Below are positions 27,062 to 38,982 of a stretch of 64,000 nucleotides of DNA, in pieces. Both the position numbers and the translations under genes were made by a program. Under the pieces are notes generated by a model. That model was not told where the DNA came from. It saw only the letters and a list, made by a program, of their open reading frames with translations, and did no database searches. How positions within the stretch are numbered: the stretch's first letter is position 1; every line of letters starts with the position of its first letter. Source of the DNA: Acidilobaceae archaeon (GTDB lineage Archaea; Thermoproteota; Thermoprotei_A; Sulfolobales; Acidilobaceae); contig JALWPV010000028.1 of NCBI GenBank assembly GCA_027080775.1, forward strand, positions 1 to 64,000. Reading direction: 5' to 3'.

Positions 27062-30000
27062 CTAAAAGTACTCTTCCTGCTCTGATAGCCTCTCAGCTAT
27101 CACCGACTTGACCTTCCAGAGGACCGCTATCAACGCTATTAGCCCTGTCAGCCCGACGAATAGTGGCGTCATTCTCTTGACTACTGTGAGCGGCGTGGGG
27201 TATACTGTCAGTGTGACTGACTTCTGGCGCGGAACCTCTATGTAGATACTGGCAGGCTTATAGGCGCTCTGGGCCACGGAAACCTGGTATATCCCGTAGT
27301 AAGCCTTTAGTGTAACTGAACCACTCTTCGACGTTAACCCGCTTGCAACGACTGCGTGGGTCCTAGTGTCTATGAGTTCTACTAGGGCTCCCGCCACGGG
27401 CTCCGATCTATCATTGACTACCATGACTGTTATCGTGTACTGCCTAGGCTTCAGCGTTATATTCACCACCTCACCGTTTCTATCAACCTTAAACGTTATC
27501 GAGGGGGGTAGTACATAGTAGTCCTGCGAGACCGGCTTGAGCTTGCATGTGTAGACACCGTAGGGGAGCGTCAGGTTCGCCCTCCCGCCCTTCACCGTGA
27601 CTATCTTTGGATACTCAACAGCAGGCGGCTTCGCCGCGCCCTGCCTTGACAGCTCTAGTTTGTAGGGGAATGGTATGGGCCTCTTAAACAGGTAGTCTTT
27701 GAGGAGTATTGTCACGTTATACGACTTATATGGTAGGACGACCTGGGTCTCATATCCCTTGAGTCCGACGGTAACTGTGAACTGTAGTGGTTTAAGCGGG
27801 GTCTTGGGAGGCGGTGTTACTATGACCTTATAGCGCCCGACCCTGACTCCGCCGCGGGGGCTTACCGTCCCGTTGATGGATACCATCGGCGGGGGCGAGA
27901 GCTGCGGCACCTGGTACACGAGTTTAACGAGGGCGCCATCCACTCTGTTGCCGTCTGGGTCTACTATTGTAAGCTTGAGGGGGGCCAGGATTGGGTCTAA
28001 GTTGACTCTGGCCTCCTTGGAGGCCAGCAGGTTTAGTGATATGGTCGAGGGCTTGTAGTACTCAGCGGTCACCTCAACCGTATAGGCCCCCGCTGGAAGG
28101 CTGAGCTTCAGCGCGCCGCCCTCGGCCGTGGCTCGCAGCGTGCCAGTCCCATAGGGCCCCCTGTAGACTAGGGAGACATTAGCGCTAACTGGCGTGTGAG
28201 TCTGGAAATCGAAGACCCTGAGCACGAGTGTCACCGTGGGTGGCGTGATGTTGAACTCTAGTTTGAGGGGCTTATCTACGGTGAGGTTCCCATCTAGGAT
28301 CAAGGGCTCCTCCATGCCGGGGCCCCAGGCTAGTATTGTATAATTGCCGTAGCGTAGCCTGAGGACCGCCTCCCCCTTGGCGCTGGTGCGGGCCACTAGC
28401 TTCCCTGTCTCGAGTGGGTGCCTGGGTGCAGCTATGATTGTAATATTTGAGGCGCTACCCTTAAGCCATGCGGGCCCCACTACCTTTAAGGCTATACTCA
28501 CCGTATAATTCACGGCTTGAAGGTCGAAGACTACGCTCTCGTTACCTGCCACGACCAAGGTTGTGGTGGTGTTCACGTAGTGCATCTTAGATATCCTAAT
28601 TAGGTACTCGCCTGCCGGAAGCTCTATCGCGTAGCCGCTTGACAGCACTAGCCTCCCGGTCAGGGGGAACCCGTTCCAGCTCTCGAAGTATATGGTCACG
28701 TTGGCTAGCCTATCGTATGGCGGGGCTAAACCCGGGTCGCGGAAGGATACGTTTATAGTGTAGAGTACGGGTTTGAGCGCTACCTTTAACTGGGACGTCT
28801 TAAATACATCAATGTAGCCCTCCGCCTCCTGGTAGCCCTGTCTGGATACGGTATAGGCGTAAACACCAGCTCTTACGGTCAGGGTCACCGAGCCGTCGGG
28901 CCCTGTTGACGCCTCGACTGCGGGCGCTTCTACGGCCTTGAGCACGGGATCCTCGGGTTCGAGTGTTACTGATGCGTTAGCCAGGGGCCTCGACGGTATA
29001 GCTATGGTTGCATTGGCCGGCTGGTTGTAGACCGCCACCCTCAAGTGAACGAGTACGGGATCCATCTTTATGATCTCGCTTAGGCTACTATTAGGCGTGG
29101 CTATGAATGACCCCGTGGCCTCGTAGTAGTGAGGCTCGTAGGCTGCTACCGTGTAGACACCCGCTGGCAACTCGAAGGACCCGGTGCCCCCTGGGAGTAG
29201 TAGGCTCACCTTCTTACCGGGGCCTATGCCGCTATATTCTAGTAGGAGCTGGACCCCCGGCACCGGGCGGCCCGTCTGGGCGTCCGAGGCCGTTATGTTA
29301 ACCCGCGTATAAGCCGGATGCACGGTGTAGGCCAGCGTCAACGGGGAGCCCACGGCCACCTCGAAGGCCTCGGGCCGCGCGTAGGGGTGCTCGACCTGTA
29401 CCAGGTAGACGCCCCTCCTAAGGCTAAGCGTCACGGAGCCCGAGGCATCCGTGTAGCCCGTGATCGGCTTCAGTGGAAGCGCTGGGCTTAGGATCCTCAC
29501 GGTGACGAGCGCCCCCTGGAGCGGCCCCTCGGCGAGGTGCCACTTCGGATCCGTTACCACAAACCTCAGCTTTACCGGGTACTTCACTGGGGTCATGTAA
29601 AGCTTGAGTGTGTACTCACCCGTGAAGACGGCGTATGAGTCAGGCCCGTATACCTCGTAGCCGGTGGCCTCGGCCACTATCTTGTAGAGCCCGTAGGGTA
29701 GCGTCAGGCTGGCTGTCCCATTGCGTGCCTCGACGACGAGGGACCCGCCACCTGCGGTGCTGGTGTATGCCAGCGTGACCGTGGCGTTGCCCACCATGAC
29801 GCCCGCTGAGTATAGCTCTGAGTCATAGATGGCTATCCTGACATGCGAGTAGAGCGGCCTGAGTACCACACGTAGCTCTCCCAGCGAGGGCGTTATGTTC
29901 ACGTACTCGATGTAGTCCCCCGTGATCGGGCTGCTCACTTCTAGCTTGTAGAGACCCACCCTGAGTGAGAGCCTGGCCACGCCGTCTTCGCCAGTTAGAC

Positions 30001-32728
30001 CTGTGAATGTCTTGTTGAGTGGCGGGTCGAGTAGGCTAAGGCTCACGCGGGCCCCGGCCAGGGGGCCTGATGCTAGGTTAGTGAGGTTGTCCTGGACCGC
30101 TACGCTGACCGGCACCGTGTAGTACTGGGGCTCCAGCTCCACCTCCAAGCTAGTATTGGAGGCCACGTGGACTTGCCCCTTGTACTGGGAGTAGCCTGGA
30201 GCCGTGACTGCGACGGTATAGTTGCCCATGGGCACCCCCAGCTCCAGGACGCCCTTGGGGGCTGGTAGCGTGACCTCACCACCGCCCTGCAGCGCTATCG
30301 TCACGTTAGCCGGAACACTGTACTCTACGCCCTCCCGGCTCGCCTCTGCGTCGAGTATGGTTATCCTCAGAGGGTATAGGTGTGGGTATAGTGGGAGCGT
30401 CTCATTGACTGGGCCCCAGGGTGGGAGGCTGTAGGAGGCGCTCTCGTAGTACTCCTTGGAGACCGTGACTCTATAGTAGACGCCCGACCAGAGGACAGCC
30501 TCGACCCGGCCGTTGCTACCAGTTACCGCTTCAATGCTCGAGGCTAGAGGCTCGTATGATAGGTTTCCAGTATAGCCTACCGGCTCGAGCGAGACTCTGG
30601 CACCAGCCACGGGGCCTGCCTGGAGGGCGTAGCCGGGCTCGCTGGGCGGCGTGTAGATCACGAGGGAGGCCCGCCTGAACCTCAGCGGCACCGTTATCCT
30701 CGCATCGTAGTCGCCGACTTGTATCTTCTCCTCTACCACACCCCAGGACGTCGCGTTGACCCGCATCGTGTACGTGCCCGGCGGCAGGTACAGCGCGGCT
30801 CCTCCATTGACTAGCTTAGCAGATGCCACCAGGGTCCCGTCCTCCCGGTACGCCTCCACCGTCGAGTCGGGGCCTGGCGTGTACTCCTCAAGGCTCCCGT
30901 TGTAGCCCCTCACAGTGACTGTGACGTTAACCTCAACCCTATGGAGGGGTGGAGTGCTCCAGAGGCCCTCCTCCGCCACTAGCAGCCGAGGCGCGCCTGA
31001 GCCCGAGAATGGGGCGACCACGAGGGGCGAGGCGGGGCCAGACCAAGCCCCGCCGACGATGCCGCCGCCGAGGGGTAGCGTGAGGTAGGGGTAACCCGGG
31101 GCCCCCCTCCAGAGGGGCCTCCAGCTCGTCTCGTTCACGGCCTGGGCCAGCCCGCTGGCGCTAAGGGCTACGACCACATTCGAATGCGTCGGAAGTATGA
31201 AGGATACGGGCTCGTCGCCTGTGGCCTCGATGCTGTGAGCCGCCACGTACTTGCCCTCGGAGTCGAGCCAGACTAGCTCATAGAGGGTTCCAGCGGAGGT
31301 CCCTAGGAATATCTTTGAGAGGTCTGGCGTCAGGGCCTCACTCGTTATCGGGGCCTGCACTGCTATGTCCTCCCAGTACCTGCCATTCACGCTTACCGGC
31401 TGGAGGTGGGAGTCTAGGTACACCAGGTAGATGCGGCCCTTGTCAGGGTAGAGGAGGGCCGCCACACCCCTGGCGCCAGCCCTCAGCAGCCCCTCGGGGG
31501 GCGCCGTACCAGTTAGGTAGAATAGCGTGGCCGCTGGGGCCGCCCCCTTCAGTCCTGGGAGGAGGCGGAAGTCGAGCCTAGCAGGGCTGAAGGAGCCTGG
31601 GAGGCCCGTGAGGTTTATGAGCATGTAAGGCTCCAGGTGCCCCCCGCTGAATCCCACTGAGCAGTTGCTTGATGCGCTTAGAACGAGCTCCACGCTCTTC
31701 ATGTCTCCGAGGCCGAGGCCCACGGGCTTGCTCTCGCCCACGTAGCACTGCGTCAACACGACCTTGCCTGTAGTATTATCTATTAGTCTGTAGATGTAGA
31801 GCCCTGCTACCCTATAGTAGCCGGGGTAGAGCCCAGCGAGGAGAGCCGTGTAGTTAGCCTTGACCGGGTACTTCGTGCCGCTTAGATCCTCCAGGATTCC
31901 AGTGGGATAGGCTAGGACCCAGAGGCGCAGGGTAGCATTGGCGACCCTGTCCCGGGAGATGGGCTTGTACTTGAAGGTGTATGCGGGCAGCAGGCTAGAC
32001 CCCTGCTTGTAGTATACGCTCACGTTAAGCCTCGAGAGCAGCGTCGCGTTGAGCACCTTATAGCGCGCGAGGAGAAGAGGAGTGTAACTCCACTCGCCCC
32101 ACGACTCTAGGAGCTTGATGCCATCGATCTCGAGTACCTTGACCCCGCCAAGCCTCTTGAGGGCCTGCTCGCCTGGCTGGGGGCCTATCTCGAGCCAGTA
32201 GGGCTGCCCGACCCTGTATATCCTGAGGTAGCCCTTGGAGGTTAGCACGGCAAGCTCTAGTCCACCGCTGGTGTTTGAGAGCACCATACCCTCGATAGCG
32301 TTGTCCTGGCCAGTGTAGTACCTAGCCAGTGGGCCCCCCGCCTCGCTGGAGTATACTAGAACCTCGCCCTCATCAGAGGCTACGGCGGCGTGCGAGCCGT
32401 GCCCCGAGGAGTCGAGTGCTATCCTCGTAACGACGCCCTCAACGCTCGACTCCCAGAGCACGCGGGGCCCGTTCAGGCTTACGGCGGCCGCGTAGCCGTT
32501 ACCACCTATGACTGCTACCCCCGCCTCCCCTTCTAAGGCCGCGGCTGTCAGGCCCCCCGTAAGGTTGGTCTGGAGGACCCGGAGGCCGTAGATCTGCGTT
32601 GGCTCATACCAGGCCCCCACAGCCGGGGGAGCGGCCTCCCCCGAGTAGTGCGCTAGCCCAGCTGGAAGCACGGCTACCGCGGCCACTAGGAGGAGAGCCC
32701 ACACTACCCCCCGAGGCAAACGCTGCAC
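27062..32728 (-). CDS. giant repeat-rich membrane-anchored surface protein
   Basis: From GTG 32728 it has 1888 residues. The start MQRLPRG precedes a signal-type hydrophobic stretch (VVWALLLVAAVAVLPAGLA). Residues about 40-600 look like a beta-propeller-type region. From about 610 to 1845 there are roughly 14 repeats of 80-110 residues, each with a sheet-turn element of type LPxGxYxVxV, like carboxypeptidase-regulatory/PEGA-type beta sandwiches. Many NxS/T sites suggest glycosylation. Near the end a membrane helix (LFVGLTGLIALIAVLW) and a 17-residue charged tail anchor it. The frame extends to GTG 32773, but the TATA box (32754-32763) lies within that extension. It is divergent from the pilus ATPase and shares its promoter region. 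The role is probably surface adhesion or scaffold. Confidence 0.85.
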   Translation of the reverse strand: MQRLPRGVVWALLLVAAVAVLPAGLAHYSGEAAPPAVGAWYEPTQIYGLRVLQTNLTGGLTAAALEGEAGVAVIGGNGYAAAVSLNGPRVLWESSVEGVVTRIALDSSGHGSHAAVASDEGEVLVYSSEAGGPLARYYTGQDNAIEGMVLSNTSGGLELAVLTSKGYLRIYRVGQPYWLEIGPQPGEQALKRLGGVKVLEIDGIKLLESWGEWSYTPLLLARYKVLNATLLSRLNVSVYYKQGSSLLPAYTFKYKPISRDRVANATLRLWVLAYPTGILEDLSGTKYPVKANYTALLAGLYPGYYRVAGLYIYRLIDNTTGKVVLTQCYVGESKPVGLGLGDMKSVELVLSASSNCSVGFSGGHLEPYMLINLTGLPGSFSPARLDFRLLPGLKGAAPAATLFYLTGTAPPEGLLRAGARGVAALLYPDKGRIYLVYLDSHLQPVSVNGRYWEDIAVQAPITSEALTPDLSKIFLGTSAGTLYELVWLDSEGKYVAAHSIEATGDEPVSFILPTHSNVVVALSASGLAQAVNETSWRPLWRGAPGYPYLTLPLGGGIVGGAWSGPASPLVVAPFSGSGAPRLLVAEEGLWSTPPLHRVEVNVTVTVRGYNGSLEEYTPGPDSTVEAYREDGTLVASAKLVNGGAALYLPPGTYTMRVNATSWGVVEEKIQVGDYDARITVPLRFRRASLVIYTPPSEPGYALQAGPVAGARVSLEPVGYTGNLSYEPLASSIEAVTGSNGRVEAVLWSGVYYRVTVSKEYYESASYSLPPWGPVNETLPLYPHLYPLRITILDAEASREGVEYSVPANVTIALQGGGEVTLPAPKGVLELGVPMGNYTVAVTAPGYSQYKGQVHVASNTSLEVELEPQYYTVPVSVAVQDNLTNLASGPLAGARVSLSLLDPPLNKTFTGLTGEDGVARLSLRVGLYKLEVSSPITGDYIEYVNITPSLGELRVVLRPLYSHVRIAIYDSELYSAGVMVGNATVTLAYTSTAGGGSLVVEARNGTASLTLPYGLYKIVAEATGYEVYGPDSYAVFTGEYTLKLYMTPVKYPVKLRFVVTDPKWHLAEGPLQGALVTVRILSPALPLKPITGYTDASGSVTLSLRRGVYLVQVEHPYARPEAFEVAVGSPLTLAYTVHPAYTRVNITASDAQTGRPVPGVQLLLEYSGIGPGKKVSLLLPGGTGSFELPAGVYTVAAYEPHYYEATGSFIATPNSSLSEIIKMDPVLVHLRVAVYNQPANATIAIPSRPLANASVTLEPEDPVLKAVEAPAVEASTGPDGSVTLTVRAGVYAYTVSRQGYQEAEGYIDVFKTSQLKVALKPVLYTINVSFRDPGLAPPYDRLANVTIYFESWNGFPLTGRLVLSSGYAIELPAGEYLIRISKMHYVNTTTTLVVAGNESVVFDLQAVNYTVSIALKVVGPAWLKGSASNITIIAAPRHPLETGKLVARTSAKGEAVLRLRYGNYTILAWGPGMEEPLILDGNLTVDKPLKLEFNITPPTVTLVLRVFDFQTHTPVSANVSLVYRGPYGTGTLRATAEGGALKLSLPAGAYTVEVTAEYYKPSTISLNLLASKEARVNLDPILAPLKLTIVDPDGNRVDGALVKLVYQVPQLSPPPMVSINGTVSPRGGVRVGRYKVIVTPPPKTPLKPLQFTVTVGLKGYETQVVLPYKSYNVTILLKDYLFKRPIPFPYKLELSRQGAAKPPAVEYPKIVTVKGGRANLTLPYGVYTCKLKPVSQDYYVLPPSITFKVDRNGEVVNITLKPRQYTITVMVVNDRSEPVAGALVELIDTRTHAVVASGLTSKSGSVTLKAYYGIYQVSVAQSAYKPASIYIEVPRQKSVTLTVYPTPLTVVKRMTPLFVGLTGLIALIAVLWKVKSVIAERLSEQEEYF

Positions 32729-32753
32729 CTGCGCTGAGTCTCCAGGGTAGAGT

Positions 32754-32763
32754 AGTTTATATG
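32754..32763. promoter_or_regulatory. shared TATA element, giant protein and pilus ATPase
   Basis: TTTATATGA/TCATATAAA is the only AT-rich stretch between the divergent genes. It lies about 30 bases before GTG 32728 on the minus strand (near-leaderless) and about 65 bases before ATG 32824 on the plus strand. Confidence 0.5.
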
Positions 32764-32823
32764 ACTCCCCCACCCCCCGCCCTCTCGAGGCGTTGGACGC
32801 TCCAGCGACCGGGGCGGGCCTGC

Positions 32824-35286
32824 ATGGTGGACTTCAAGGGCTTCCTGGCCAAGGTGCGGTTCAAGAGGAGGGGCAAGAAGAAGCCCCAGAGGCTCGGGGA
32901 GCCCCTAGCGGTGGAGGCTGCCGAGGAGGAGGCCCAGGCTGCCGAGGAGGCAGTAGAGAGGGGGGCGCCCGCCCCGGGCTTCACAGCCCTTACGAGGGCG
33001 GGCTTCAAGCCAATAAAGATGTACCCCCTGGAGGAGCCTTGGAGCAGGGCCGTCATCCTCCAGAACCCCGAGACCGGCGAGACCCTCTACTGGGTCGACG
33101 AGATAGAACTCAACGAGGCCGAGAAGGATGTTTACAGGAAGATAATGGATATCCTGTACTGGGAGATGGAGCCTCCCAAGGAGGGAGTTGACCCCTACGA
33201 GCACTTCAGAGAGGAGGCTCAGAGGGTAATCCAGAGGTACATGCTGAGGTTCGGTGAGACGATCTCACCCCTGATAAGCTGGAAGAAGGTCCAGTACTAC
33301 GTGATTAGAGACACCGTGGGCTTCGGGAAGCTGGATCCTCTGATGCGGGACGAGTACATAGAGGACATAAGCTGCGACGGCGTCGGGAGGCCTATATACG
33401 TGTGGCACAGGGAGTTCGAGAGCATCCCAACCAACATAGTATTCGAGACCGAGGACGAGTTGGACAAGATGGTTGTAAAGCTTGCCCACAAGGCCGGCAA
33501 GCACGTGAGCGTCGCATTCCCGATAGTGGACGCCATCCTACCCGGGGGCCACAGGCTGGCCGCCACTTTCAAGCGAGAGGTCAGCATGGGAGGCTCGACC
33601 TTCACCATAAGGAAGTTCAGGGAGAAGCCTTTCAGCGTCGTGGACCTCATCAGGGGCGGAACCCTGAGCCCAGAGCTGGCTGCATACTTCTGGCTCGCAA
33701 TGGAGTTCAAGAACACCGGCCTCATAATGGGGGTGACGGGAGCAGGCAAGAGCGTGGCTGGCACCACCAGGATCCTGGCCGTGGCCCAGGGCAGGCCCGG
33801 AGTCTACACCTTCGAGGAACTCTGGGAGGTCTACGCCCACGAAGCCGTCCAGGCGGCCCCGGGATTCGAGGTTGTAGCGAACCCCGACCTGCTGGTGAGG
33901 AGCTGCGACCCCGCAACCCTGAGGTGCTCGTGGGTCAGGCCCCGCTACCTGATAAGGCACGTCAACGATAAGAGGATGTACAGGGTCAGGCTGGCGAGCG
34001 GCCGCTACCTTGATGTAACCGAGGACCACTCCCTACTCGTATACCGCGGAGGCTCCCTCAGGCCAGCCAGGCCCGGACCCGGCATTATAGGCCGAGCTGC
34101 GCCCATACTACTGGGCCTCCCAGTCCCCGCTGGGCTCGACGAGAAGGCCTCGGCGCTCAAGGGCATCCTCGACCGCGCGTCGAGGCACGGCGATAAGCTT
34201 GTCTTAGAGGTTAAAAACGAGGATGAGGCCTGGGACCTCATCTACACCCTGAGTGAAGCTGGTATAGCCGCATCACTAGACTATAGTGGCGGCAGCATCA
34301 GGGTAGTAGTGCCTGCCTCCGCGCCTGAGAGGCTCTCAATGGAGCCGGGGGCCTTCGATGTTTACGAGGCCGACGGGTGGAGCCTAGCGGCATTCCTAGC
34401 TAGTGGAGGCGCCCTCCTCCTGGATAGGATTGTAGCCGTTGAGGAGCTAGACGCGGGTGAACACGAGTACGTATACGACCTTGAGGTTCCCGGGTGGCAG
34501 AGCTTCGAGGCGAACAACGTTCTCGTGCATAATACCACACTGCTCAACGTATTAGCCAGCATGCTCAAGCCCACGATTAAGATTGTTACCATAGAGGACA
34601 CGCCCGAGCTGAAGCTCACGCACGAGAACTGGGTGCAGCTGGTCTCCAGGCCCAGCTACGGGGTTGGACCAGAGAAGATAGGGGAGATCACGCTCTTCGA
34701 CCTGGTCAAGGTGAGCCTGAGGTACAGGCCCGACGTGATAATAGTCGGCGAGGTGAGGGGCGAGGAGGCCTACGTCCTCTTTCAGGCGATAGCAACTGGC
34801 CACGGAGGCCTTACAACGCTCCACGCAGAGCATATAGAGGCCGCGGTCAAGAGGCTCACTAGCCCGCCCATGAACATACCCGAGAGCTACATACCCCTGA
34901 TGAACTTCGCAGCCGTGATCAAGAGGGTGAGGCTCTACAACCCCGACGGCACCTATAAGATAGCCAGGAGGGTCACGGAGGTCTGGGAGGTCCGCGACTA
35001 CGGGGACTACCCACTCATAGCGAGGTGGAACCCGGCCACGAGGAAACACGAGGTAAACCTGAGCCAGAGCATGGTGCTGAGGAGCATAGCGGAGGAGGTC
35101 GGCACAGACTACGGCTGGGTCGCAGACGAGATCGAGAGGAGGGCAACCGTGCTCAGGTGGCTCGCCGTGGAGGGTATAACCGATTATAGGAGGGTTGCGA
35201 GGTACATCAACGAGTACTACGCCTCCCCACTGAAGCTCTACGAGAAGGCCCGGGAGGGCCTCAAGAGCGCCGAGGCCTTCGGGTGA
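32824..35286 (+). CDS. type IV pilus/archaellum-type secretion ATPase with intein
   Basis: This 820-residue precursor (559 after removal of a 261-residue intein) belongs to the VirB11/GspE/FlaI family that drives pilin assembly from the cytoplasmic face. The Walker A is split: GVTGAGK precedes the intein and TTLLN follows it, giving GVTGAGKTT after splicing. Walker B is DVIIVGEVRGEE; the His box is TGHGGLTTLHAEH; the Asp box lies around VTIEDTPEL. The N-terminus is Lys/Arg-rich, then Glu/Ala-rich. ATG 32824 is used because the frame further upstream crosses the shared promoter. The next gene, its membrane partner, starts eight bases later. Without splicing, ATP binding should fail. Confidence 0.95.
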   Translation: MVDFKGFLAKVRFKRRGKKKPQRLGEPLAVEAAEEEAQAAEEAVERGAPAPGFTALTRAGFKPIKMYPLEEPWSRAVILQNPETGETLYWVDEIELNEAEKDVYRKIMDILYWEMEPPKEGVDPYEHFREEAQRVIQRYMLRFGETISPLISWKKVQYYVIRDTVGFGKLDPLMRDEYIEDISCDGVGRPIYVWHREFESIPTNIVFETEDELDKMVVKLAHKAGKHVSVAFPIVDAILPGGHRLAATFKREVSMGGSTFTIRKFREKPFSVVDLIRGGTLSPELAAYFWLAMEFKNTGLIMGVTGAGKSVAGTTRILAVAQGRPGVYTFEELWEVYAHEAVQAAPGFEVVANPDLLVRSCDPATLRCSWVRPRYLIRHVNDKRMYRVRLASGRYLDVTEDHSLLVYRGGSLRPARPGPGIIGRAAPILLGLPVPAGLDEKASALKGILDRASRHGDKLVLEVKNEDEAWDLIYTLSEAGIAASLDYSGGSIRVVVPASAPERLSMEPGAFDVYEADGWSLAAFLASGGALLLDRIVAVEELDAGEHEYVYDLEVPGWQSFEANNVLVHNTTLLNVLASMLKPTIKIVTIEDTPELKLTHENWVQLVSRPSYGVGPEKIGEITLFDLVKVSLRYRPDVIIVGEVRGEEAYVLFQAIATGHGGLTTLHAEHIEAAVKRLTSPPMNIPESYIPLMNFAAVIKRVRLYNPDGTYKIARRVTEVWEVRDYGDYPLIARWNPATRKHEVNLSQSMVLRSIAEEVGTDYGWVADEIERRATVLRWLAVEGITDYRRVARYINEYYASPLKLYEKAREGLKSAEAFG
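33751..34533 (+). mobile_element. intein inserted in Walker A of the pilus ATPase
   Basis: The insert covers precursor residues 310-570. Block A begins with Ser1 (SVAGTTRIL), block B has the TxxH motif (LDVTEDHSLLVY), block F/G reads VYDLEVPG...FEANNVLVHN and ends His-Asn, and the +1 extein residue is Thr. Removing it joins GVTGAGK to TTLLN. No intact LAGLIDADG motif is visible; the middle stretch EDEAWDLIYTLSEAGIAASLDY resembles the last part of a homing endonuclease, so this is probably a mini-intein with a decayed endonuclease. Confidence 0.92.
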
Positions 35287-35293
35287 CGCCCCC

Positions 35294-37180
35294 ATGGCCC
35301 TAGAGGGCCTCCGCAAGAGGCTCCGCGGCCTCTTCAAGAAGAAGGCGGAGGAAGAGGAGGGGGAGCGCCTGCCCACGGAGCCCGAGGTCCGGGTCTATAG
35401 GCCCCCCAGGAGGCTCACCCTCCAGGACGTCATAGACGTTGTTGCCCTAACCTACTTCCAGGGCATGGCCAGGAGGCTCGCCCAGGCCTTCGAGCTCGAG
35501 AAGTCCATTAAGCAGGCGGGCCTCAGGGTCAGCCCTGAGCTGTATGCAGCGAGGATCCTCCTCTACACATTCTCAACACTATTCCTGGCAGTCTACTTCT
35601 CTTCACTCATAGCGCTCACTCACCTCTCAGCGGTAATGAAGGCCTTCTCCATAATGGCCTTAATGATCTCCCCGCTACTAGTCTTCGGCCTAGGCCTCTC
35701 CTACCCCTCAAGCAGGGTTGGAGAGAGGAGGAACGGCGTCGAGACCGAGCTGCCATTCTTCACAGCCTACCTGACAACAATGGCCCGGGGAGGCGTGCCG
35801 ATAGGCAGGATCCTCGAGAGAGTGGCAAACCTCAGGATATTCAAGGCCATACGAGAGGAGGCCAGGATGATAATAAGGGACATCAAGATATTCGGTAAGG
35901 ATCCCCTAACCGCCATAGAGGAGCACGCCCTCGAACACCCAAGCCCCCGCTATAGGGAGCTCATGCTAGGCTACGTCACCAGCGTGAGGACGGGCGGTGA
36001 CGTCCTACACTACCTCGAGATAAGGACCCAGGACATATTCTCCTCCAGAATAGCGGAGCTAAAGAGTATAGCGGAGAAGATGAGCATGTTCACAGAGGTC
36101 TACGTGACCATGGCCGTTATCCTGACCCTGGTCTTCTACATTTTCTTCACTATATCTGCAATATTCCCCACAGGCGGCATGAGCCTGGCTGGCACCGCCC
36201 AGCTAGCCCTATTCTCATTCGTCTTCCTCCCACTCATGACCGTGTTCCTACTCTACGCAATACACCAAGCCCAGCCTAAGACCCCCATATCCATAGTGGC
36301 CCCCTACAGGGACACGATATACATCGGGATCCCCCTGGCCCTGCTCACCTTCCCCGTGCTACTCTACGGCACGAGCGGGTACAAGGCACTCTACGGCCAG
36401 ATAACGACCTCCTCCATAATAGGCCTAGCCACCGCCCTCTCTGGCACGCTGATAGCGCTGCTCATACCCGGGACCTACGACTACCTCAAACACAAGAGAA
36501 TGACCAGGGGCCTGGGCAGGGCCACCGCGGTCTTCCTCAGGGATCTAGCCGAGGTCAGGAAGACTGGGCTCAGCCCCGAGAAGAGCATTGAGATGCTCGC
36601 GGAGAGGGACTACGGCCCCCTAACACCCATAGTGAGGAGGGTGGCTGCTGCGATAAGCATTGGAACCGAGATAGAGGAGGCCCTCCGCAGAGCCCTCAGG
36701 GGCTTCAGGGACTGGCTGCTACTGGCGAACATGCGCTTCCTAGCCGATAGCATCCTAGTCGGCGGAGGCACCAGCGAGACCCTAGACGCCCTAGCCAGGT
36801 ACGCCCACAACCTAGTCGAGATAGACGAGGAGCTGAAGAGGAAGCTCAGGAGCTACATATTCATGCCCTACATGGGGGCCATACTAGTCGTAGTCTCAAG
36901 CCTCCTCATACTAGGATTCACCGCAGGCACCCTAACAGCCACCCACGCGGGTGCGGGGGGCCTAATGAGGACCGCCCAGATGGCAGCAGAGATGCCCAAG
37001 ATAGCCCTACTCCTAACCCTAGGAGGCATCCTAAACTCCTGGCTAATGGGCCTCGTGGCAGGGAAGATCCAGGACTCCTACCTGGCAGGAGGCTTCATGC
37101 ACGCCATACTCCTAACAGTAATCTCGCTGGCGACGAGTGCAGTAACTCTGCACATGATACACTTGAAGCCACCCACCTAA
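35294..37180 (+). CDS. pilus assembly membrane platform (TadC/FlaJ/GspF-like)
   Basis: This 628-residue multi-spanning protein has two GspF-type domains. The first is marked by LPFFTAYLTTMARGGVPIGRILERVANL and the second by VFLRDLAEVRKTGLSPEKSIEMLAE. Hydrophobic clusters lie near residues 85-140, 270-330, 350-400 and 520-625. It begins with a basic region (KRLRGLFKKKAEEEEGERLP) on the cytoplasmic side. It is the partner of the ATPase immediately upstream and anchors the assembly machine. Confidence 0.92.
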   Translation: MALEGLRKRLRGLFKKKAEEEEGERLPTEPEVRVYRPPRRLTLQDVIDVVALTYFQGMARRLAQAFELEKSIKQAGLRVSPELYAARILLYTFSTLFLAVYFSSLIALTHLSAVMKAFSIMALMISPLLVFGLGLSYPSSRVGERRNGVETELPFFTAYLTTMARGGVPIGRILERVANLRIFKAIREEARMIIRDIKIFGKDPLTAIEEHALEHPSPRYRELMLGYVTSVRTGGDVLHYLEIRTQDIFSSRIAELKSIAEKMSMFTEVYVTMAVILTLVFYIFFTISAIFPTGGMSLAGTAQLALFSFVFLPLMTVFLLYAIHQAQPKTPISIVAPYRDTIYIGIPLALLTFPVLLYGTSGYKALYGQITTSSIIGLATALSGTLIALLIPGTYDYLKHKRMTRGLGRATAVFLRDLAEVRKTGLSPEKSIEMLAERDYGPLTPIVRRVAAAISIGTEIEEALRRALRGFRDWLLLANMRFLADSILVGGGTSETLDALARYAHNLVEIDEELKRKLRSYIFMPYMGAILVVVSSLLILGFTAGTLTATHAGAGGLMRTAQMAAEMPKIALLLTLGGILNSWLMGLVAGKIQDSYLAGGFMHAILLTVISLATSAVTLHMIHLKPPT

Positions 37181-37270: not shown

Positions 37271-37729
37271 GTGAGTACGCCCCACGGGCTGTCCGAGGTG
37301 AAGAATAACATGAGGAGCAGGAAGGGCATAAGCCCCGTCATAGCGACCGTGATAATAGTTGCCGTAGCCATTGCGATCTCCATAGCGGTTGCGGGCTGGC
37401 TCATGGGCCTCTGGAGGGGCTTCGGCGCCGTGGAGCAGCTAACAGTAATGCCGGACTCCTCCCTAATAGTCTCTAACGGCACGTCCACGCTAGTGCTGCA
37501 CATAAAGAACACTGGCTCCAAGGCCGCAGTAATAGAGAAAGTCGTGGTATCTGGCCTAGGAACATTCACGTACTCGGGCGGCGATTCCACCACTATAAAC
37601 CAGGGCGCTGACTCCACACTAACATACACGGCTGCTGTGGCAGCCGTACCCGGCACCCAGTACCTAGTACAGGTCTACACTAGCTCCGGCGCCGTCTACC
37701 AGGGCTACGTCGTAGCACAGTCCTCGTAA
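37271..37729 (+). CDS. type IV pilin-like protein
   Basis: This 152-residue protein carries a class III (prepilin) signal: basic RSRKG, then ISPVIATVIIVAVAIAISIAVAGWL. Cleavage is expected after Gly19. The hydrophobic helix would form the filament core; the remaining domain is Ser/Thr/Val/Gly-rich with two NxT/S-type sites and beta character. GTG 37271 fits the TATA box; ATG 37310 would give a shorter leader with the same signal. It follows the ATPase and platform genes, so it is the likely structural or minor pilin. Confidence 0.88.
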   Translation: MSTPHGLSEVKNNMRSRKGISPVIATVIIVAVAIAISIAVAGWLMGLWRGFGAVEQLTVMPDSSLIVSNGTSTLVLHIKNTGSKAAVIEKVVVSGLGTFTYSGGDSTTINQGADSTLTYTAAVAAVPGTQYLVQVYTSSGAVYQGYVVAQSS

Positions 37730-37737
37730 ACATAGAG

Positions 37738-38982
37738 TTGAATAGAAGCACCTCCTTTACCCACTTATTTAAACGCTTTTTTAGTTTTGGCTTGAATAGT
37801 GGTAGGATAGTTATTGCGTACCTATTTTTACTAGTGATTTCAGGATCTATTATTTATCCTCTATTCTTAACCTCAACCCACATGAGGTACTCGGACGAGG
37901 AACTATACCTTAGATGCGGCCTAGAGTACATTAAGAGTAGGGAACACTGCCCCCTGATGTGTAACCCTGAGCATACCCCGCTAGCCAAGTTCGTATACGG
38001 GATCATGCTGAGATACACGGGCTTGGAGGGTCTCAGGCTATTCCTATTCTCTATATACATATCCCTTATCCTAATAATATTTATTTTATATAAAAATAAA
38101 ATAATAGGCCTGAAATATGCTTTCGTAAGCGCGCTCTTAGTCGAGCTGAACCCGTTAATATTGTCCCTCTATTCTTCCGCGTTGCTCGACGATGTAATGC
38201 TGCTATTTCTCGCCGCATCCTTCGTGCTACTGTCTTTTGGCGAGAACCCTTACCTCGTGGTTGCTGCGTTGTTTTTCGCTCTGTCTGTAATGGCTAAGGA
38301 GGCCTCACTCGTGGTTCTAGCCGTCTACGCCCTCTTTGTACTGGTCTTATGGGCTCGCCGGCGTGAAAGCGCACGCGTGCGGAGACACACATATTTTATA
38401 GTATATACAGTAATTTTTATTATAATACTTTATACAATATTCTATTCTCCTTGCATTGCAAGCCGCGGGTTCAGTAGTACTATGCACGAGATTCTCAGTG
38501 GCTATAGATACGAGCATCACCTCCACGGGTTCCGCCTTGTTATATCCATGATATCGGTTTCTAAGATGCTAACTGGCGTTGAGGTTTGGAAGTATTACAA
38601 TGTAACATTTAATATAGTGAATAATACGATTACTATCGGTAGCTATAGGTACGCTGGCTACTTGCTTATGTTTACGCCTGCAGAGTATAGTCCCGTCGCC
38701 ACTGTTTTCCCCATAGCCGTGATATGGCTTCTCTTAGAGAGGCCGGAGAAGAGGCGTGCCCTCATGGAGGACGTGAGTGTCATGTGGGCTACTGGTGGCT
38801 TCGTATTGGGGATGCTTGGCCCTATGGCGTGGTACTATGCCCCCTATAATGTGTTCGCGACCATCGCCCTTGCTCGGCATCTGCCTCGGAGGGCTCTTCT
38901 CGTGCTTTTAGTTACTGAGGCCGCGTATCTCGTGTGGATCATAGCGTTTAACCATAGACTCTTCTATTCACTTGTTATATAA
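37738..38982 (+). CDS. membrane glycosyltransferase, protein-mannosyltransferase type
   Basis: This 414-residue protein has about nine hydrophobic segments. Near the N-terminus a loop has Asp-Glu (MRYSDEELYLRCG) and then EHTPLAKFVYG, the pattern of GT39/PMT-like enzymes that use dolichyl-phosphate sugar. The gene is clearly more AT-rich than its neighbours, with Phe/Ile/Tyr codons such as TTT, ATT and TAT, which suggests recent acquisition. It sits between two pilin-like genes, so pilin glycosylation is a reasonable role. TTG 37738 starts it nine bases after the pilin stop. Confidence 0.75.
   Translation: MNRSTSFTHLFKRFFSFGLNSGRIVIAYLFLLVISGSIIYPLFLTSTHMRYSDEELYLRCGLEYIKSREHCPLMCNPEHTPLAKFVYGIMLRYTGLEGLRLFLFSIYISLILIIFILYKNKIIGLKYAFVSALLVELNPLILSLYSSALLDDVMLLFLAASFVLLSFGENPYLVVAALFFALSVMAKEASLVVLAVYALFVLVLWARRRESARVRRHTYFIVYTVIFIIILYTIFYSPCIASRGFSSTMHEILSGYRYEHHLHGFRLVISMISVSKMLTGVEVWKYYNVTFNIVNNTITIGSYRYAGYLLMFTPAEYSPVATVFPIAVIWLLLERPEKRRALMEDVSVMWATGGFVLGMLGPMAWYYAPYNVFATIALARHLPRRALLVLLVTEAAYLVWIIAFNHRLFYSLVI

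Follow-up and report, generated by a model that had tools for sequence, protein, structure and literature searches.

The junction between the lysine and the threonine of Walker A is a known intein insertion point, used by the VMA-b and MCM-a inteins, and the RadA inteins also lie in the P-loop. VMA-b inteins (PhoVMA, TliVMA) interrupt subunit A of the archaeal A-ATPase between these two residues (PMC2814812), and both active and degenerate LAGLIDADG versions occur at that site (PMC8966425). The intein described here resembles them in its Lys/Thr position and in the occurrence of degenerate endonuclease forms at one site, but it has a different host protein, is about 12-13% identical to TliVMA by structural alignment and starts with Ser, whereas TliVMA and PhoVMA start with Cys (C1A in the solved structures). 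In Haloarchaea, the MCM-a inteins follow directly after the Walker A lysine, in a host gene with four sites of which two are often filled together (PMC10643990); here the likeness lies in the insertion point and the multi-site host, and the difference is that the MCM-a host is the replicative helicase. The RadA inteins differ in that their host is a recombinase and that conditional splicing has been measured for them (PMC5790916). The likeness to the RadA P-loop inteins of P. horikoshii and T. sibiricus is that these too occupy a hyperthermophile P-loop ATPase and have no working endonuclease, and RadA gives the best structural match.

KlbA inteins reside in a VirB11/T2SSE-type ATPase, a host like the present one, at a site that we take to lie near TGHxG, in the region of sites b and c described below and outside Walker A. 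They are class-2 inteins, which in M. jannaschii and others have Ala1 and Ser at G:6 (PMC4031507). The present intein has Ser1 and His260 instead, and a class-2 (KlbA-type) assignment was rejected on this basis. Our literature searches, with InBase and most subscription papers outside their scope, returned no report of T2SSE pilus ATPases interrupted by an intein at Walker A. What seems to be new is the host family, together with the four-site hotspot character of the T2SSE-type ATPase.

The interrupted ATPase gene and its neighbours

The window is the whole 64,000-nucleotide stretch of archaeal DNA that was analysed. On its forward strand a frame of 820 amino acids, intein included, runs from an ATG at 32824, likely the start codon of the N-extein, to 35286. 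Reading of this frame places an in-frame, stop-free insert of 783 nt (33751-34533) between Lys309 and Thr571, dividing Walker A between its Lys and Thr (GVTGAGK/TTLLN, where the slash marks the insertion point). The AAG codon of Lys309 ends at 33750 and the AGC codon of Ser1 starts at 33751; at the 3' junction, CAT-AAT (His260-Asn261) ends at 34533 and the ACC of the +1 Thr begins at 34534. The codons at both junctions agree exactly with the coordinates that the initial annotation had given for the insert, and its proposal that Walker A is split between Lys and Thr is borne out by these codons and by empty-site orthologues. The features of the locus are as follows.

32824..33750, + strand: N-extein of a T2SSE-family pilus ATPase, 309 aa, ending in GVTGAGK (congener alignment, family models)
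33730..33750, + strand: Walker A half GVTGAGK; the +1 Thr would complete the motif after splicing (empty-site orthologues)
33751..34533, + strand: intein, Ser1 to Asn261, 261 aa (PF14890, TIGR01445 and TIGR01443 above cut-offs; Foldseek to inteins)
33751..33789, + strand: block A, SVAGTTRILAVAQ, with the predicted nucleophile Ser1 (in 10/10 lineage members)
33997..34038, + strand: block B, SGRYLDVTEDHSLL, with Thr90 and His93 (TxxH; T90, D92 and H93 in 10/10 lineage members)
34144..34278, + strand: what is left of LAGLIDADG repeat 2, residues 132-176, without its catalytic Asp (alignment to same-site relatives)
34462..34533, + strand: blocks F and G, HEYVYDLEVPGWQSFEANNVLVHN, with Asp243, His260 and Asn261 (residue alignment of the lineage)
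34534..35286, + strand: C-extein, 250 aa plus stop, +1 Thr first (PF00437 T2SSE, PF23989 PilB3_C)
35294..37180, + strand: T2SSF membrane platform protein (PF00482; UpsF/ArlJ models below cut-off)
37271..37729, + strand: type IV pilin-like protein with an archaellin/pilin N-terminus (TIGR02537, 25.7 bits, cut-off 20)

The host belongs to the T2SSE/GspE family: PF00437 scores 103 bits, Walker A, Asp box, Walker B and His box are all found, and the nearest solved structures by sequence and fold are archaeal GspE (2OAP) and FlaI (4IHQ). Its identification as a pilus motor is well supported, because the genes for a T2SSF platform and an archaellin/type IV pilin-like protein come next. More specific identities were rejected. 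The FlaI archaellum motor model NF058587 gave 340.6 bits against an equivalog cut-off of 550, in two stretches around the intein, and the ATPase falls below the NCBIfam cut-off for BasE. For the Ups pilus the scores were 130.2 bits for UpsF (cut-off 400) and 43.3 bits for UpsA (cut-off 130), where a true Ups operon elsewhere yields 605 and 186 bits. Since the Sulfolobaceae-like counterpart, L209 (577 aa), is not part of the Ups operon, and since the NCBIfam scores are below cut-off, the pilus is only loosely Aap/Ups-like.

Two further neighbours were noted. On the minus strand, 27062-32773 encodes 1903 amino acids in which carboxypeptidase-regulatory-like/PEGA domains recur and a hydrophobic segment lies at the C-terminus; this divergent gene, its 5' end close to the ATPase start, likely specifies a surface protein. 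A membrane protein beside the pilin (37738-38982, + strand) shows weak, below-cut-off similarity to Agl23 (flippase-associated) and is possibly tied to surface glycosylation.

Splicing residues and the endonuclease remnant

The insert matches the Pfam model Intein_splicing (PF14890, 41.3 bits, cut-off 35.8) and the NCBIfam models for both ends of inteins, TIGR01445 at the N-terminus (28.9 bits, cut-off 24.5) and TIGR01443 at the C-terminus (16.8 bits, cut-off 15.6). An AlphaFold2 model of moderate confidence (pLDDT 73.7) has the HINT fold: all 28 PDB chains that Foldseek matched to it with E <= 0.001 are inteins, the best being the P. horikoshii RadA intein (E 7.9e-10). Sequence models and predicted fold thus agree with the initial call of an intein, and the blocks A, B and F/G, the Ser1, the terminal His-Asn and the +1 Thr that accompanied that call are all present. 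Ser1, Thr90, His93, Asp243, His260 and Asn261 are kept in 10/10 members of the lineage, which range from 168 to 513 aa. The class-1 features are Ser1 as the position-1 nucleophile of block A, T90-E-D-H93 as the TxxH of block B, D243, H260 and N261 followed by Thr+1 in blocks F and G, and uninterrupted host alleles with the same junction in congener G147 and 78 orthologues. Block F is slightly off consensus, reading GWQSF and missing the usual intein His.

Because these residues are kept in all ten lineage members, we infer that the intein would splice by the standard class-1 pathway. It would be translated as part of the ATPase and fold as a HINT domain; an acyl shift at Ser1, transfer to Thr+1 and cyclisation of Asn261 would excise it, joining GVTGAGK to TTLLN and completing the ATP-binding loop. 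In the precursor, Ser1 restores the letters GVTGAGKS, so that the Walker A consensus is intact. Judged from the sequence, the precursor is nevertheless likely to be unable to bind ATP before splicing, because the helix that follows the loop (TTLLNVLAS) is displaced by 261 residues; in the precursor model residues 304-309 have pLDDT < 50, which fits loss and retention of ATP binding alike. Some nucleotide binding may be possible, since in the model the exteins around the insert retain the overall GspE fold.

The suggestion that the middle of the intein holds a homing endonuclease in decay is also borne out. Although a Pfam search matched no LAGLIDADG family in the window intein, residues 132-176 align with LAGLIDADG repeat 2 of relatives at the same site (25.3 bits, where the highest-scoring of 2000 shuffles reached 4.6), and BLAST against the intein of G198 gives E 9e-6. 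An active LAGLIDADG homing enzyme has two motifs with catalytic acids. Here only the second repeat is left, in degenerate form, the catalytic Asp of the G199 intein (FLRGYIAGDG) aligning with Ala (ALKGILDRAS), and for these reasons the window copy is unable to home now. We propose that the intein formerly carried a LAGLIDADG endonuclease, and that the immobile copy stays in place because any imprecise deletion would ruin the ATPase.

Distribution of the intein and of empty sites

The orthologue in congener G147, 85% identical, reads GVTGAGKTTLLNVLASMLKPT with no insert. A 64-aa query made of the joined flanks runs unbroken through orthologues in 78 genomes of the order (rows with E <= 5e-23), and the three other T2SSE paralogues of the window's own genome, G000, have no insert at the Walker A point. 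Intein-free alleles at this site, which the initial annotation had proposed to look for, therefore exist in G147 and the 78 orthologues and read straight through the predicted junction, not through a different one. A 96% identical congener (L184, at the end of G149:C58) sits on a contig that stops 54 codons before the insertion point.

Inteins of the window lineage occupy the same Walker A residue in nine further genomes across the phylum. Their sizes are 196 (G103), 168 (G021), 512 (G198), 513 (G199), 444 (G010), 356 (G135), 420 (G098), 500 (G522) and 365 aa (G394), and Ser1, Trp25, H70, TxDHS, VYDxEV and HN are invariant. A second lineage, with an SFPGDT start and an LNHN end, is found at the same residue in G107 (400 aa) and G140 (465 aa), at L049:2333-3532 and L050:2376-3770; the G140 intein matches LAGLIDADG strongly and also contains a helix-turn-helix domain. 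In Pfam searches LAGLIDADG_3 scores above cut-off in G199, G010 and G140, below it in G198, G098 and G107, and is absent from the window, G135, G103 and G021 inteins. The hosts of the short G103 and long G199 inteins belong to one genus, and therefore the endonuclease domain has been lost within a genus.

The intein tree has two clades, which match two ATPase subfamilies (GVTGAGK or GVTGSGK, and MASGK or MGSGK). The extein tree pairs the window gene with the intein-free gene of G147 as its sister (support 100/100); the kin of its intein sit in other families, and within the GVTG subfamily the intein carriers are spread over three separate positions, each close to intein-free genes. The window intein appears to have been acquired horizontally. 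Its third-position GC content (GC3) is 0.74 against 0.82-0.83 in the exteins, a gap too small to date the acquisition. For the patchy occupancy we favour repeated homing, given that some alleles still carry an endonuclease domain. An old intein that was passed on vertically and lost repeatedly could also explain it, and the division of the intein tree by host subfamily points that way. A scan of IMG/VR for viral carriers gave distant matches only (best 29% identity, E 9e-14), and we therefore claim no viral donor; a scan of genome contigs returned DNA polymerase inteins, mostly of Thermococcus.

As a whole, these results lead us to regard the insert, with a probability of about 0.93, as a class-1 intein of a homing lineage aimed at the Walker A codons of archaeal T2SSE-type ATPases, which has lost its endonuclease to decay and persists because it splices. 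On the sequence evidence we argue for a selfish element retained by the need to splice, given the intein-free congener and the patchy, decaying series. The initial annotation had suggested that pilus assembly could depend on heat or redox state through splicing. Splicing might indeed be slow until heat, a redox change or a partner signal releases it, the intein then gating pilus assembly: the RadA P-loop intein of Pyrococcus/Thermococcus, best fold match of the window model, splices conditionally with temperature and ssDNA (PMC5790916), and all splicing residues are kept here despite the dead endonuclease. However, any splicing-competent intein would show equal features, no conserved intein-extein feature was found, and although the intein contains Cys52 and Cys59, its Ser1 and Thr+1 nucleophiles are not redox-sensitive. 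Moreover, the intein-free G147 and 78 orthologues show that the intein is dispensable for the ATPase family. Such a switch is therefore unlikely, regulation by heat or redox is unsupported and, since the congener manages without the intein, amounts to speculation. We consider it equally improbable that the immobile intein is kept as a post-translational gate on the pilus motor with condition-dependent release, and that several other archaea do likewise at one to three motor sites.

Somewhat less probable still is that the intein no longer splices, making this ATPase gene a null allele whose role the three intein-free paralogues of G000 fill, a reading to which the slightly aberrant block F might also point. 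Against it, the 261 codons are open, all essential residues are kept, the exteins are highly conserved (85% to G147) and the adjoining platform and pilin genes are intact. An intein-bearing fragment joined to the ATPase gene in assembly or binning is very improbable, for although the draft genome has 85 contigs and the contig of congener G149 breaks off near the site, contig 28 is 220 kb long and the insert keeps the frame, has exact borders and sits at a residue used by eleven other genomes.

Multiple intein sites in T2SSE-type ATPases

Across the phylum of the window, inteins enter the T2SSE-type ATPase at four different sites, and a single gene may hold as many as three of them, which makes this family a hotspot for inteins. 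Besides Walker A, open frames place inteins at site b, IA/TGHGG, in G016, G060, G023, G065, G069, G103, G198, G199, G107, G098, G156, G171, G180, G193 and others. It is the common second site, often filled alongside Walker A (L044, L174, L175, L049, L052 and others). Site c, GHGG[LM]/[TSC]TLHA near the His box, is occupied in G073, G180, G193, G010 and G522, and the remaining site, EDIV/CDG, in G522 (open frames read). The G522 gene (L201, G522:C11:16500-24500) holds three inteins in one frame of 1635 codons, at EDIV/CDG, at Walker A and at GHGGM/CTIHG near the His box. A second intein was found beside a P-loop intein in 8/12 cases versus 8/78 (Fisher p 6e-5), a hand tally from mixed sampling that ignores phylogeny, and the co-occurrence is only a lead. 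Genome G000 also has inteins in MCM, the RFC small subunit and a Spo11/topoisomerase VI subunit A-like protein, the hosts being named by eye (L183, L179 and L180, on contigs 32, 11 and 65).

With these findings, the P-loop ATPases that inteins have entered at the ATP-binding loop include pilus and secretion motors as well as the A-ATPase, MCM and RadA. This supports the view that conserved ATP-binding codons, rather than DNA replication as such, attract inteins. Further, the full, half-decayed and endonuclease-free alleles found at one residue, even within a single genus, provide a usable series of the homing cycle in a non-replication protein.
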